Part shown: one piece after another, positions 6,973 through 36,009 of the stretch
How positions within the stretch are numbered: position 1 is the stretch's first letter
How the letters are laid out: each line of letters begins with the position of its first letter
From: Actinomycetota bacterium
GTDB lineage: Bacteria > Actinomycetota > Actinomycetes > Nanopelagicales > Nanopelagicaceae
Assembly: GCA_947450175.1 (NCBI GenBank)
Contig: CANFUR010000002.1
Location: 1 to 46,933, forward strand
Direction of reading: 5' to 3'
Length of the DNA stretch: 46,933 nt
Notes under the pieces: generated by a model
What the model saw: only the letters and a program-made list of their open reading frames with translations
What the model was told of the DNA's origin: nothing
Databases searched by the model: none
Made by a program: the position numbers and the translations under genes

Positions 6973-9168
6973 ATGGAAATGCAATCATTCTCCGACTACC
7001 TACGTAGTGTTGATGATGATGCCTTCTTGAAGTTATTTTCTGCCAGACCAGATCTAGTAACTCCAGTTCCACCAGATATCGCATCACTTGCGGTGCGCGC
7101 ATGTTCGTCTCCAAGTTTAGCTCGAGCCATTGATTCTCTTAATCAATGGCAGTTCCAAGTGCTAGAAGCTGCGGCCGCACTTAACGAACCTTTTTCTTTG
7201 AAAAGTATCGTTGCAATTACAGATAAGGCGGCAGCACAAGCTTTAGATCACTTGATTTCGATCGGACTTGTTTATCCTTCTGATGATGGAATGCGTCTTC
7301 CTTCACAATTACGTGATGTTATTGGAAATGAACCTGCCGGGCTCGGCCCGGCATCAATTGCAAAAGTTAAGTTAACTGAAATTGAAAGTGCACCGGCCGA
7401 AGCAAAAAAGGTTCTTGAAAGATTAATTTGGGGACCACCACGTGGAAGTGTCGGCGATATCAAAAATCCTGGTCCTGGAGTCTCCTGGTTACTTGAAAAC
7501 AAATTCCTTGTGCCCCTTGATCAACGAACCGTAATCTTGCCTCGAGAAGTTGCGATTCATTTGCGCGGCGGCAAAGTGCATAAAGAGAGATTTATTGTTC
7601 AACCCAAACTCAATGGCACAAAGCGTGATGAGCGACAGATTGATTTAGCTGCAATTGCTAATATCTCAACGGTCTTACGCTGGGTTGAAGAACTCCTTAA
7701 TTTCTGGGCCGATGAGCCTTCAGATGCACTACGTGCTGGTGGAATTGGTGTTCGCGATTTAAAGATACTTTCTACCCGCCTTGGTGTTGATGAGTCATGT
7801 ACTGCTTTTATTACTGAACTCGCATTTTTATCGTCACTTATTAGTATCGATGCAGAAGATCGAATAATGCCAAGTAATAAATTTGATATCTGGTTAATGC
7901 AAACTCCTTCAGATCGCTGGCAAGTTCTCGCATCACAGTGGTTAATCACTTCTAGAGTAAGCGGACTCGTAGGCCGCGCTGATACAAAAAATGTTGCTGC
8001 CCTTGGCCCAGAACTTGATCGGGTGAATGCAGCCAAAGTGCGCGCTTTAACGCTTTCAATTCTTCAAGAAAATCCGGCTATCGCTCCAGAAATAAATTCA
8101 TTTAATGAGGTAGTTGCTTGGCGTGCACCTGTACGCCGCAATTCATCTCTGCAGGAGGAGTTAGCGAGTTGGACTTTACGTGAAGCTGAATGGCTAGGAA
8201 TTACTGGACAGGGAGCTATTTCTAAATACGGCGTTGAGTTCCTAAAGGGTGAAGATTTAACAGTTATTAACCAAGACTTACCTAAGACTGTAGATCACAT
8301 TTTGATTCAAAGCGATAACACAGCAATTGCACCAGGACCTTTAGAACATGAAATATCTCAGCAGCTTGCAATGATGGCTGAGATTGAAAGTCGCGGTGGC
8401 GCAACGGTTTATAGATTTAGCGAAGCAACGATTCGCCGAGCTTTAGACCATGGCAAAACAGGTGATGAAATTAAAGCTTTCTTAACTAAAACATCTAAAA
8501 CTCCAATGCCTCAACCTTTGGAGTATTTGATTGCTGATGTATCAAAAAAGCATGGCAAGTTGCGAGTAGGCAATACCACCTCATTTATTCGTTGCGAAGA
8601 TACGACTCTGATTTCGCAGATTATGAATGATAAGAGACTGGAAATACTTGCGCTTCGCCGAATTGCACCTGAAGTTGTTATTTGTGATCACGATGCAACA
8701 GACACAATGCGAATTTTACGAGAAGCTGGATATTTACCAGCTGGTGAATCAACTGCTGGCATCATGCTCACCGGTCCTCGATCTAATCGTGCACTCACCA
8801 AGCCAAGGCCGCCGAGAGTAATCGGTGAGATTGAAATTCCTACTGCTGAAAATTTAAGCGCTGCAATTCGAGCAATCCGTACCGGCGAGAAATCAACGCA
8901 CAAACAAACACATTTGCGCCAAATAGCTAACGAAGCATTGGGTGCACTTCCTCGCACCACGGCAAATGAAACTATGGACTTGGTTAATAGATACATCAGC
9001 GAAGAAAAATCACTTTCAATTGGCTACGCCGACAACAATGGCGCTGTTACACATCGAATCATTGATCCCATCCGCGTCAGCGCAGGAGCCTTAATCGCTC
9101 GCGATCACGCAACGGGAGAAGTGCAGTCCTTTAGAATTCCCCGCATCACCGGCGTAGCGCCACTATAG
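6973..9168 (+). CDS. helicase-associated domain protein with C-terminal WYL-like region
   Basis: 731 aa. C-terminus SLSIGYADNNGAVTHRIIDPIRVSAGALIARDHATGEVQSFRIPRI resembles WYL/helicase C-terminal-associated domains. Located near the XPB helicase, as in the Rv0862c-Rv0861c pair of M. tuberculosis. Confidence 0.8.
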   Translation: MEMQSFSDYLRSVDDDAFLKLFSARPDLVTPVPPDIASLAVRACSSPSLARAIDSLNQWQFQVLEAAAALNEPFSLKSIVAITDKAAAQALDHLISIGLVYPSDDGMRLPSQLRDVIGNEPAGLGPASIAKVKLTEIESAPAEAKKVLERLIWGPPRGSVGDIKNPGPGVSWLLENKFLVPLDQRTVILPREVAIHLRGGKVHKERFIVQPKLNGTKRDERQIDLAAIANISTVLRWVEELLNFWADEPSDALRAGGIGVRDLKILSTRLGVDESCTAFITELAFLSSLISIDAEDRIMPSNKFDIWLMQTPSDRWQVLASQWLITSRVSGLVGRADTKNVAALGPELDRVNAAKVRALTLSILQENPAIAPEINSFNEVVAWRAPVRRNSSLQEELASWTLREAEWLGITGQGAISKYGVEFLKGEDLTVINQDLPKTVDHILIQSDNTAIAPGPLEHEISQQLAMMAEIESRGGATVYRFSEATIRRALDHGKTGDEIKAFLTKTSKTPMPQPLEYLIADVSKKHGKLRVGNTTSFIRCEDTTLISQIMNDKRLEILALRRIAPEVVICDHDATDTMRILREAGYLPAGESTAGIMLTGPRSNRALTKPRPPRVIGEIEIPTAENLSAAIRAIRTGEKSTHKQTHLRQIANEALGALPRTTANETMDLVNRYISEEKSLSIGYADNNGAVTHRIIDPIRVSAGALIARDHATGEVQSFRIPRITGVAPL

Positions 9169-21937: not shown

Positions 21938-24439
21938 TTAAGCGGTTGGTGCTTCAGCTAAATTTTCAGGTGAATCAGGCGTCTCGGCCTTTGCTGCACC
22001 TTTGAATGTGAAGATTGCATCAGTGCCTTCGCCCTCTGCATCTACAACAATGATTTCACCTGCCTTAAGTTCACCGAACAAGATGCGCTCTGAAAGCGCA
22101 TCTTCGATCTCGCGCTGAATTGTGCGACGCAATGGACGAGCACCAAGAAGTGGGTCATAACCGCGTGCAGCAAGTAAATCCTTGGCTGCAGGTGTTAATT
22201 CGATACCCATATCTTTTGCTTGCAAACGATCATCAAGGTTTTTGATCATCAAATCAACAATTTGAATAATCTGATCCTTAGTTAATTGGTGGAAGACGAT
22301 TACGTCATCAATACGGTTAAGGAATTCAGGGCGGAAATGAGACTTAAGCTCCTCATTGACCTTGCCCTTCATGCGCTCGTAATTTGTTTGATCGTCATCG
22401 CTGTTAGCAAAACCAAGACCTAGGCTCTTTGAGATGTCGCGAGTACCAAGGTTTGTAGTCATGATGATGACAGTGTTCTTGAAGTCAACGGTGCGACCTT
22501 GTGAATCCGTTAGGCGACCGTCTTCAAGAACCTGCAACAACGAGTTGAAGATATCTGGATGTGCTTTTTCGATTTCATCGAAAAGAACAACAGAGAATGG
22601 TCGGCGGCGAACTTTTTCAGTTAGCTGTCCACCTTCGTCGTAACCAACATATCCTGGAGGTGCACCGAATAAACGTGATGCGGTGTGACGCTCTGAGTAT
22701 TCAGACATATCCAACTGAATCAAGGCATCTTGATCACCAAATAAGAATGATGCAAGTGTGCGAGAAAGTTCAGTCTTACCAACACCTGACGGTCCAGCGA
22801 AGATAAATGAGCCACCAGGACGGCGTGGATCTTTTAGGCCAGCGCGTGTACGGCGGATTGCTTGTGACAAAGCCTTAATTGCTTGATCTTGTCCAATAAC
22901 TCGGTGATGAAGTTCATCTTCCATACGAAGAAGTCGTGCAGTTTCTTCTTCTGTTAACTTAAAGACTGGAATTCCAGTTGATGCAGAAAGAACTTGGGCG
23001 ATGAGTTCTTCATCAACCTCAGTGACCTTATCCAGATCAGTTGCTTTCCAATTCTTCTCAGCTTCATGCTTTTCAGCGATAAGGGTTTTTTCCTTATCGC
23101 GAAGTGATGCTGCCATTTCAAAGTCTTGACCATCGATTGCAGATTCTTTTTCTTTGCGGGCATCTGCGATTTTGTCATCAAATGCGCGGAGTTCTGCAGG
23201 TGCAGTCATGCGCTTAATGCGAAGACGTGAGCCTGCTTCATCAATTAAATCAATTGCCTTATCTGGTAAGAAACGATCTGATACATAACGATCGGCAAGA
23301 TTTGCCGCTGCTGCTAGTGCGCCATCGGTAATAGATACGCGGTGGTGAGTTTCGTAGCGATCGCGAAGACCCTTCAAAATTTCGATTGTGTGAGCAACTG
23401 ATGGTTCTTTTACTTGAATTGGTTGGAAGCGGCGCTCAAGAGCTGCATCCTTCTCAACATGCTTGCGATACTCATCAAGAGTTGTTGCACCGATAGTCTG
23501 TAATTCACCGCGTGCAAGCATTGGCTTCAAGATGCTGGCTGCATCAATTGCACCTTCTGCAGCACCGGCACCAACAAGTGTGTGAATTTCATCAATAAAA
23601 AGAATGATGTCGCCGCGAGTTTTAATCTCTTTGAGAACTTTCTTCAAGCGCTCTTCGAAATCTCCACGGTAGCGGCTGCCAGCAACAAGTGCACCAAGGT
23701 CTAGTGAGTACAGTTGCTTGTCTTTCAGTGTTTCCGGAACATCGTTCTTGTAAATCGCTTGTGCAAGACCTTCAACGACTGCAGTCTTACCTACACCAGG
23801 TTCACCGATTAGAACTGGATTATTTTTTGTGCGACGTGAAAGAACTTGCATCACACGTTCAATTTCATTTTCGCGACCAATAACTGGGTCAAGCTTTCCT
23901 TCGCGGGCAGCTTGAGTCAGGTTGCGACCAAATTGATCAAGTACCAAAGATGTTGAAGGTGTTCCTTCGGCTGGGCCACCTGTTTGTACAGCTTCTTTAC
24001 CTTGGTAACCAGAAAGCAATTGAATAACTTGTTGGCGAACGCGGTTAAGGTCAGCACCAAGCTTTACAAGAACCTGTGCAGCAACACCTTCACCTTCGCG
24101 GATAAGACCAAGCAAAATATGTTCGGTACCAATGTAATTGTGACCAAGTTGCAACGCTTCGCGAAGTGAAAGTTCTAGAACTTTCTTTGCACGCGGTGTA
24201 AATGGGATATGTCCACTTGGTGCTTGCTGACCTTGTCCGATAATTTCTTCAACTTGTGCGCGAACGCCTTCAAGTGAAATACCGAGAGATTCGAGACCCT
24301 TTGCAGCAACGCCTTCACCTTCATGAATTAAGCCGAGCAGAATGTGCTCAGTGCCGATGTAGTTGTGATTGAGCATGCGAGCTTCTTCTTGGGCCAGCAC
24401 AACAACGCGACGGGCTCGATCTGTAAAGCGCTCAAACAT
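21938..24439 (-). CDS. clpC: ATP-dependent Clp protease ATP-binding subunit ClpC
   Basis: Clp-N repeats, Walker [14 protein letters not shown] and [15 protein letters not shown]-like middle domain, [32 protein letters not shown] start. Confidence 0.97.
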
Positions 24440-33924: not shown

Positions 33925-35127
33925 CTAGACCCGACCACCAAATGGCATTAAGCCCTTAATGCTGTAGATATTCGAGTACAAAAGGCCTTTAGGCGTAGAG
34001 TTGGCTTCCCACATCATTCCATTTCCAGCATAAATGGTGATGTGATGAATTGTAGAAATCGTTCCCTTGTAGGAGTAGAACAAAAGATCTCCAGGTACTA
34101 AGTCATTGAGTGAAACATGCTTGGTGTACCCCGAATACAGCGCCGAGTTAAGGCGATCCCAATCAGGCCAATTCAAACCTGCCGCGCGATAAGCGGCAAA
34201 GACAAGTCCTGAACAGTCAAAAGTACTTGGACCTTGAGTTCCCCATACATATCGCTTGCGAGCAAGAACTTGGGCCTTAGCGTATGCAACGGCTTTATCA
34301 CGTTGCGCTTGTGTCGTTCTTACAGTTGAGCGGCCCTTGAAACCAATGTCTGGCCATATATTTTTTTGGCCAGGAGTGTTATCGGCTTGATTAGCTTGGG
34401 ATTCTTCCAGCAATGCAAGTTGTCGTTGTTGTTCTAAAGTTGTACGTACTTTTCTGGCATTCAGTAGCTCTTTCATTAATGCATCTTGCACCTTTTGTAG
34501 TTTTGCAACTTCTTTAGCTTGTTCAGCTTTTGCATCATCTGCAACCTTTTTTGCTGCGGCAACTTTTTCTGTAGCTTTTTGTTGTGCGATCTTTGCTTCA
34601 TCGGCAGCTTTTTTTGCTGCGCGTGCAACAACTTCTGCTGCCTTAAATCGCTCAAGTGCAATTGAGTTTTTAGTTCCTAAAGTACTCAAAGTGCTAAGTT
34701 GATCAATCAAATCTTGTGGACCATTCGCACTTAATAACGGTTCGATATCGGTCATGCTTCCACCCATAATGTATGCATTTGCAGCAAGTCGGCCAATAAC
34801 ACGACGGGCTTCCTGAACTGCTGCCGCAGTTTCTGATGCATATTTAGCTGCGGAATTTGCCGCTGCAACTGCAACCGCTAACTCTTTTTGAGCTTTTACA
34901 TAAAGTGCAGTTGCTGCGTTTGCTTTTGCAGTTAAGGTTCGCAGAGTTTGATTAGCTGCAGCCAACTTTGCTGCTTGCGCCTCTGCAGCTTTCTTTTTTG
35001 CAGTTTCAACTTTTTTTGCGGCTTCAATCTCTGCCAAGGTTGGTTTTGGGGTCTTTGCCAGAGCCGGCGCTGTTGTCAGCGTCAGTCCAAGAACTAGAGC
35101 GAGTGAAATCGCTCGGTATTTTTTCAA
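33925..35127 (-). CDS. secreted NlpC/P60 (C40) peptidoglycan hydrolase with coiled-coil N-terminus; TTG start
   Basis: Signal peptide, long Ala/Lys coiled coil, C40 catalytic TFDCSGLVFAAYRAAG and HHITIYAGNGMMWEA. Start codon is TTG with GGAGG 7 nt upstream. Confidence 0.92.
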   Translation of the reverse strand: MKKYRAISLALVLGLTLTTAPALAKTPKPTLAEIEAAKKVETAKKKAAEAQAAKLAAANQTLRTLTAKANAATALYVKAQKELAVAVAAANSAAKYASETAAAVQEARRVIGRLAANAYIMGGSMTDIEPLLSANGPQDLIDQLSTLSTLGTKNSIALERFKAAEVVARAAKKAADEAKIAQQKATEKVAAAKKVADDAKAEQAKEVAKLQKVQDALMKELLNARKVRTTLEQQRQLALLEESQANQADNTPGQKNIWPDIGFKGRSTVRTTQAQRDKAVAYAKAQVLARKRYVWGTQGPSTFDCSGLVFAAYRAAGLNWPDWDRLNSALYSGYTKHVSLNDLVPGDLLFYSYKGTISTIHHITIYAGNGMMWEANSTPKGLLYSNIYSIKGLMPFGGRV

Positions 35128-35128
35128 G

Positions 35129-35154
35129 TTAAGACCTCCGGGGGAAGGTCTTAA
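35129..35154. repeat. perfect 9-bp inverted repeat TTAAGACCT-N8-AGGTCTTAA over the SD of the NlpC/P60 gene
   Basis: Arms 35129-35137 and 35146-35154; minus strand reads TTAAGACCTTCCCCCGGAGGTCTTAAC-TTG. Confidence 0.92.
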
Positions 35155-35202
35155 GAATAAATGGCAATCCTTAGAAAACTATGGGTTTAAGTGTTGGTGT
35201 CT

Positions 35203-36009
35203 CTAATTAGCTACATCACGACGAACAAATAGGAACGAAGCTATCGCTGCACCGACGGCAACATAAATTCCACCGACAAGAAGTGCATGCGAATAATCAA
35301 TTCCCGCCAAACGTCCAGTTGAACTTCCACCAGAAGCAATCGCAGTGAGTTGGGCGCCAGGCAACCATTGTTCCCATGAGTTTTTTACTGCAATTAATAG
35401 ATTTTCAACAATCAATAGCCATAGAACACCTAATGAAATTGCGCTAATTGGAGAACGAAGTAATAAGCCAAGCACCATACCGATGGTTCCAAAGCCTACG
35501 ACTGAAATTATGATGTTTATAAAGGTAGTAAATATTGCATGGCGGCCATCGGCACCAAACCAAAGATCAGTAGTAACTTTGGCACCTGGTGCAAGAATGA
35601 CTGATGCACCAATACTTACGATTGCACAGAGCACAATCATTACTAAGGCAAATAAATTCATTGCAATGAATTTTCCGAGCAAAATTCTTAAGCGCCCAGG
35701 TTGGCGAACCAATAAATTGCGAAGGGTTCCATAGGTATATTCCTGTGCGGTTTGCGCAGCGAACACACAAAGCGCAATTATTCCTAAGAATCCACCCACG
35801 CTGCTAAAACCTTGAACTCCGCCAGTTGCAAGACCCAGAACATCACGGCCAACCATGCGGCCGCGATCTGAGTTACCTTGCGGAGAATCAATGAGCAAGA
35901 AAAGCAAAGATGAAAAAAGAGCGCTAAAGAAAATAACGGCTCCCATTGTTCCGAAAAACAAAGTTGGACGGCGAAGTTTACGGAGTTCAGCTAAAGCAAC
36001 ATTCCACAT
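35203..36009 (-). CDS. ABC transporter permease (ABC-2 type)
   Basis: Six hydrophobic segments, EYTYGTLRNLLVRQPGRLRILLGKF motif; overlaps the ATPase gene. Confidence 0.87.
   Translation of the reverse strand: MWNVALAELRKLRRPTLFFGTMGAVIFFSALFSSLLFLLIDSPQGNSDRGRMVGRDVLGLATGGVQGFSSVGGFLGIIALCVFAAQTAQEYTYGTLRNLLVRQPGRLRILLGKFIAMNLFALVMIVLCAIVSIGASVILAPGAKVTTDLWFGADGRHAIFTTFINIIISVVGFGTIGMVLGLLLRSPISAISLGVLWLLIVENLLIAVKNSWEQWLPGAQLTAIASGGSSTGRLAGIDYSHALLVGGIYVAVGAAIASFLFVRRDVAN

Follow-up and report, generated by a model that had tools for sequence, protein, structure and literature searches.

The dyad at the ribosome-binding site of a freshwater actinobacterial NlpC/P60 gene: the favoured reading is an ordinary promoter beside an ordinary ribosome site

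In Actinobacteria, TANNNT signals situated about 10–12 nt before start codons are a mark of leaderless genes (PMC3160421), and mapped transcription starts in M. tuberculosis lie 7–12 nt from the TANNNT centre, without a −35 motif (PMC3898074). A different arrangement is described for gene e of phage T4, where a long early RNA hides the ribosome site of the lysozyme gene and late promoters located in the 5′ strand of the structure give rise to a translatable RNA (PMC3014915, PMC2988022). For Planktophila or Nanopelagicales, our literature search found no work on start sites. The locus that we compare with these systems lies in a 46,933-nucleotide stretch of DNA (the window), which is contig C2 of a 125-contig, 1.28-Mb genome that, among named taxa, is closest to Ca. 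Planktophila and other freshwater acI actinobacteria. On the minus strand, the gene order is ABC ATPase, ABC-2 permease, NlpC/P60, tilS-like, hpt-like, and ftsH-like (the last three named from their translated sequences). The permease stop, at 35203, is separated from the NlpC/P60 start codon by 75 nt, and no terminator-like site lies on the minus strand between these two genes. The NlpC/P60 gene begins with TTG, its earliest in-frame start, and encodes an N terminus resembling a signal peptide; orthologs begin with TTG, GTG, or ATG at the same place. The features on which the argument depends are as follows.

33925–35127, minus strand: NlpC/P60 peptidoglycan hydrolase gene, 400 aa (Pfam NLPC_P60, E 1.3e-18)
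35129–35137, minus strand: 3′ arm of the dyad, AGGTCTTAA (from the sequence as read and the dyad listing)
35135–35139, minus strand: Shine-Dalgarno (SD) sequence GGAGG, without variation in the aligned clade
35142–35148, minus strand: pyrimidine tract CCTTCCC, the probable mRNA 5′ end, able to pair with the SD; CTTCCC is kept in several SD-bearing clades
35146–35154, minus strand: 5′ arm of the dyad, TTAAGACCT, the outer part of which overlaps the −10 and discriminator
35147, minus strand: probable transcription start (±2 nt), the 7th nt past the −10, placed from leaderless orthologs and genome-wide spacing
35154–35159, minus strand: TATTCT, the TANNNT −10 box of the gene's own promoter, conserved in orthologs
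35203–36009, minus strand: ABC-2 permease gene (Pfam ABC2_membrane_2/4), candidate source of read-through RNA

The dyad, TTAAGACCT-N8-AGGTCTTAA, runs from 35154 to 35129 on the minus strand and encloses GGAGG; its 9-nt arms are 100% complementary and spaced by 8 nt, the TTG follows at 35127–35125 with an SD-to-start spacing of 7 nt, and the whole leader region reads TATTCTTAAGACCTTCCCCCGGAGGTCTTAACTTG on the minus strand. The sequence and the dyad listing thus contain the dyad, SD, TTG, TATTCT box, and 7-nt spacing just as the original prediction had described them. In RNA the stem grows to 11 bp by one U-G and one C-G pair, with a CCCC loop. This stem is predicted at −14.7 kcal/mol (z −3.7). 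The full hairpin as carried by read-through RNA is predicted at −13.7 kcal/mol with the SD paired at 0.99, and its z of −3.7 against shuffles of both spacers (0/200 equally stable) sets it apart from them. Perfect dyads with stems of 9 bp or longer and loops of 3–20 number seven in the window, compared to 1–7 (mean 3.8) in ten first-order Markov sequences of the window's dinucleotide content. A 9-bp dyad as such is expected by chance, and this one is unusual only in its position on the ribosome site. Elsewhere in the window we observed two perfect 10-bp dyads, GCCATTGATT-N5-AATCAATGGC at 7126–7150 and AAGATGCGCT-N5-AGCGCATCTT at 22080–22104, and, within the beginning of the NlpC/P60 gene but in antisense, a terminator-like hairpin with a T-run (GAGCGAGTGAAATCGCTC GGTATTTTTT) at 35097–35115 on the plus strand. 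An intrinsic terminator at the dyad itself was ruled out, there being no T-run past the stem and none listed there. A riboswitch or other known RNA was likewise ruled out by an Rfam 15 search of the window, which gave 0 matches at the gathering score.

To place the promoter we used 89 distinct ortholog leaders, in 88 of which both a box and a start codon could be positioned. A TANNNT box (TATTCT, TATCCT, TATTAT, TATCAT, or TAGCAT) stands at a clade-constant distance in 88/88 scored leaders; this count is partly built in, since the search pattern was restricted to such hexamers, although neither the constant position nor the flanks were demanded. In 12 orthologs that lack an SD, an ATG or GTG stands exactly 6 nt past the box, making these genes leaderless, and they occupy two to three separate lineages on the protein tree. 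The complete genome of a relative (G015) has the same habit: over 1243 ORF starts, counted at the first start codon, the spacing from the end of TANNNT to the start peaks at 6 nt (171) and 7 nt (72), against ~10 at other spacings. Because the leaderless orthologs and the G015 peak give a spacing of 6–7 nt, we infer that transcription of the window gene starts near 35147, inside the 5′ arm, and the native RNA would therefore lack the pairs from 35154:35129 to 35148:35135 or have them only at its very edge. That TATTCT might be the −10, leaving the native transcript without most of the 5′ arm, had been raised in the original prediction, and the comparative data support it strongly.

Several further observations concern the promoter region and the ortholog set. 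Clades A and C and the L082-type leaderless clade (TTTTCYAAGG) have in common a conserved TTTTCTAAGG block, located at 35170–35180 on the minus strand and 11–20 nt before the −10. A normal −35 would lie farther from the −10, and the block may represent an activator site or an unusual −35 site. GACAC at 35197–35201 on the minus strand, just past the permease stop, is kept in most ortholog loci, distant ones too. A weight-matrix scan of G015 with the conserved promoter block ranked the NlpC/P60 gene first (19.7) and returned no coherent second set, ruling out a shared regulon based on this block. Eight loci (L045, L046, L055, L062, L076, L099, L101, and L107) come from MAGs titled Bifidobacterium breve or Streptomyces griseus, yet their NlpC/P60 genes nest inside the Planktophila-type set, and the titles look mislabelled. 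Tandem NlpC/P60 paralogs occur at G015:C1:409727-411969 (in L132), one of them 58% identical to the window protein.

The arms of the dyad are conserved unequally. The perfect 9-bp dyad is present in 2/89 leaders, that of the window and that of L032, a relative with a protein 96% identical to the window's. Absence of the dyad from orthologous leaders, which the original prediction had named as evidence against itself, is thus what we found outside the near relatives, while the window and L032 have it perfect. We aligned 25 clade A leaders of equal length (group A on the protein tree includes L071 only via a loose text pattern). The alignment shows hardly any variation in the left TTAAG, in CCTTC, or in the SD. 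All four bases occur at position 35149 (A in the window), the most variable arm column, although the SD holds its partner constant, and 9/25 leaders do not form the pair 35149:35134. Outer bases of the right arm drift (A15 G7 C2 T1 at one position) with the left arm unchanged, and the U-rich spacer past the SD is found also in clades without the dyad. Counting pairs over the 22 distinct rows, we obtained 90.9% paired compared to 90.7% in shuffles, and a covariation of 0.131 compared to 0.122. Sliding the partner cuts pairing to 29–68%, a control that favours the structure because the structure was derived from one row.

These patterns bear directly on the suggestion, made in the original prediction, that the dyad is a repressor's DNA operator, in this case one that overlaps the promoter. 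The palindrome does overlap the −10 and the start site, but a perfect dyad in only 2/89 leaders, symmetric partner positions that change independently, and the place of 35149 among the least conserved columns contradict a repressor site. The search of the genome for further copies gave none that were exact, and 3-mismatch matches occurred at the level of the reversed control; a lone copy is still compatible with a single-site regulator. We consider an operator very improbable. The leader alignment, proposed as a way to tell compensatory change in RNA from strict conservation of a DNA site, gave neither covariation beyond shuffles nor strict symmetry, and these sequence comparisons give no support to a conserved operator or to a covarying helix.

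With a start near 35147, the native mRNA could form only a 5-bp hairpin at its extreme 5′ end (CUUCC-CCC-GGAGG), which might lower translation, with small start-site shifts tuning its strength. The SD is predicted to be paired at 0.97–0.99 in most of clade A, a level reached ~1 in 100 times or more rarely with a random head, and the left CTTC and the SD are invariant while the loop varies. The hairpin is weak, however, at −3.6 kcal/mol, and shuffling the head matches the SD pairing at P 0.07–0.33 in most clade A leaders, indicating that the pairing is mainly a matter of composition: shuffles of the same pyrimidine-rich head pair the SD at ~0.8 on average compared to 0.97 for the native order, so that order adds little. 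In other clades the native hairpin is mostly weaker and no better than chance (native-length folds of 0 to about −3 in most, with a few longer leaders stronger, not beyond shuffles), and its U-G pair is never upgraded among the leaders. Such a device we regard as improbable. We conclude, as far as sequence comparison reaches, that the RNA gate on the native message proposed in the original prediction is not conserved, its 5 bp being weak and its pairing explained by base composition.

The pyrimidine tract itself deserves separate description. In clades A, B, C, and E, as well as in L103/L109, the SD is closely preceded by CTTCCC, whose distance from the start site varies, and SD pairing is no full explanation of its retention. 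Among 256 SD-led G015 genes, the NlpC/P60 leader is the top case of an all-pyrimidine octamer directly before the SD. The exact CTTCCC-SD pattern precedes only two G015 ORFs, the NlpC/P60 gene and a PII-like gene (named from the gene's first residues), and a CTTCCC-SD leader as a genome-wide device was ruled out on these two matches.

The main rival to an incidental dyad, a hairpin limited to read-through RNA, was not considered in the original prediction, and we hold it to be possible though unlikely. RNA reading through from the ABC genes would fold the 11-bp hairpin, hide the SD, and yield no hydrolase, while RNA from the gene's own promoter, without the 5′ arm, would be translated. The geometry is suitable: the −10 overlaps the 5′ arm, same-strand genes lie 75 nt upstream, and no terminator intervenes. 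The predicted hairpin of −13.7 kcal/mol keeps the SD paired at 0.99 in a long RNA, and clade A members, with the whole region transcribed, mostly fold at −8 to −14 kcal/mol with SD pairing of 0.77–1.0. Of 30 clade A leaders, 16 fold better than spacer shuffles (P <0.05) and the SD stays paired in almost every one, these being relatives and not independent cases. There is also a precedent in the lysozyme gene e of T4, whose promoters lie within the structure's 5′ strand and where the effect is about 100-fold (PMC3014915). In the small clade C, long pairings are kept with different sequences (L031 pairs CUAGAGACCUU with AAGGUUUUUAG, and one U-A pair of clade A is A-U here), and the clade's own arms give more stable folds than swapped arms (P 0.006), although this is one of six tests on related rows. 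The same arm swap gave no sign of coevolution in the main clade A (P 0.38), in A and C jointly (P 0.77), or in B, D, and E. Long-RNA folds of most other clades are no better than shuffles, and leader L052 has lost the hairpin. Occlusion of the SD to a similar degree was found in 12/400 SD-led G015 genes, the NlpC/P60 gene and 11 others, and such folds therefore also arise by chance. Most leaders of the window's clade could hide the SD in read-through RNA; selection for this is putative. The stronger statement, that the T4 lysozyme trick is at work on the chromosome of a free-living freshwater actinobacterium, with read-through RNA silent and own transcripts alone translated, we find a little more doubtful still. 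The outcome would be the same in leaderless orthologs, because their internal start codon has no SD.

On balance we favour, with limited confidence, an incidental dyad: an ordinary promoter beside an ordinary ribosome site, not a conserved switch. The NlpC/P60 gene would be driven by its own actinobacterial TANNNT promoter, with RNA polymerase starting near 35147 to give a leader of ~20 nt with a good SD before the TTG start. The dyad would then be the junction of two separately constrained stretches, the −10/discriminator and CU-tract on the left and the SD and U-rich spacer on the right, and the perfect 9-bp match would be a recent, lineage-specific accident that is probably no regulatory site itself. 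Counting against an incidental dyad are the 16/30 clade folds that beat spacer shuffles, the retention of CTTCCC, and the relative's leader, which ranks 3rd of 332 SD-led genes for fold stability around the SD. From the interpretation first offered, TATTCT as the −10 stands, while the RNA gate on the native mRNA and the repressor site find no support. Reading the promoter as ordinary fixes the mRNA start and removes a false lead on a repressor or riboregulator. Were the read-through model true instead, the locus would show on a chromosome a promoter-in-the-arm layout, known best from T4-like phages, controlling a cell-wall hydrolase.

Among described systems, cis-acting RNAs curated in Rfam 15, for example the riboswitches that precede hydrolase genes, share with the window a hairpin ahead of a cell-wall hydrolase gene, but the probable leader of ~20 nt is too short for a known aptamer. 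The T4 gene e, soc, and I-TevI leaders (PMC3014915, PMC2988022) resemble it in having the gene's own promoter in the 5′ arm of an SD-hiding hairpin, and for gene e the product is likewise a cell-wall hydrolase; in the window, too, same-strand upstream genes could supply a long RNA. Unlike the T4 leaders, the window locus is chromosomal and has no known early/late switch, its read-through and translation effect are putative, and its pairing is not clearly under selection. The actinobacterial TANNNT promoters (PMC3160421, PMC3898074) are alike in their TANNNT box, a probable fixed 6–7 nt to the transcript start, no clear −35, and orthologs split between leaderless and SD-led starts; the window gene differs in being SD-led with a TTG start, its transcription start being placed by inference.
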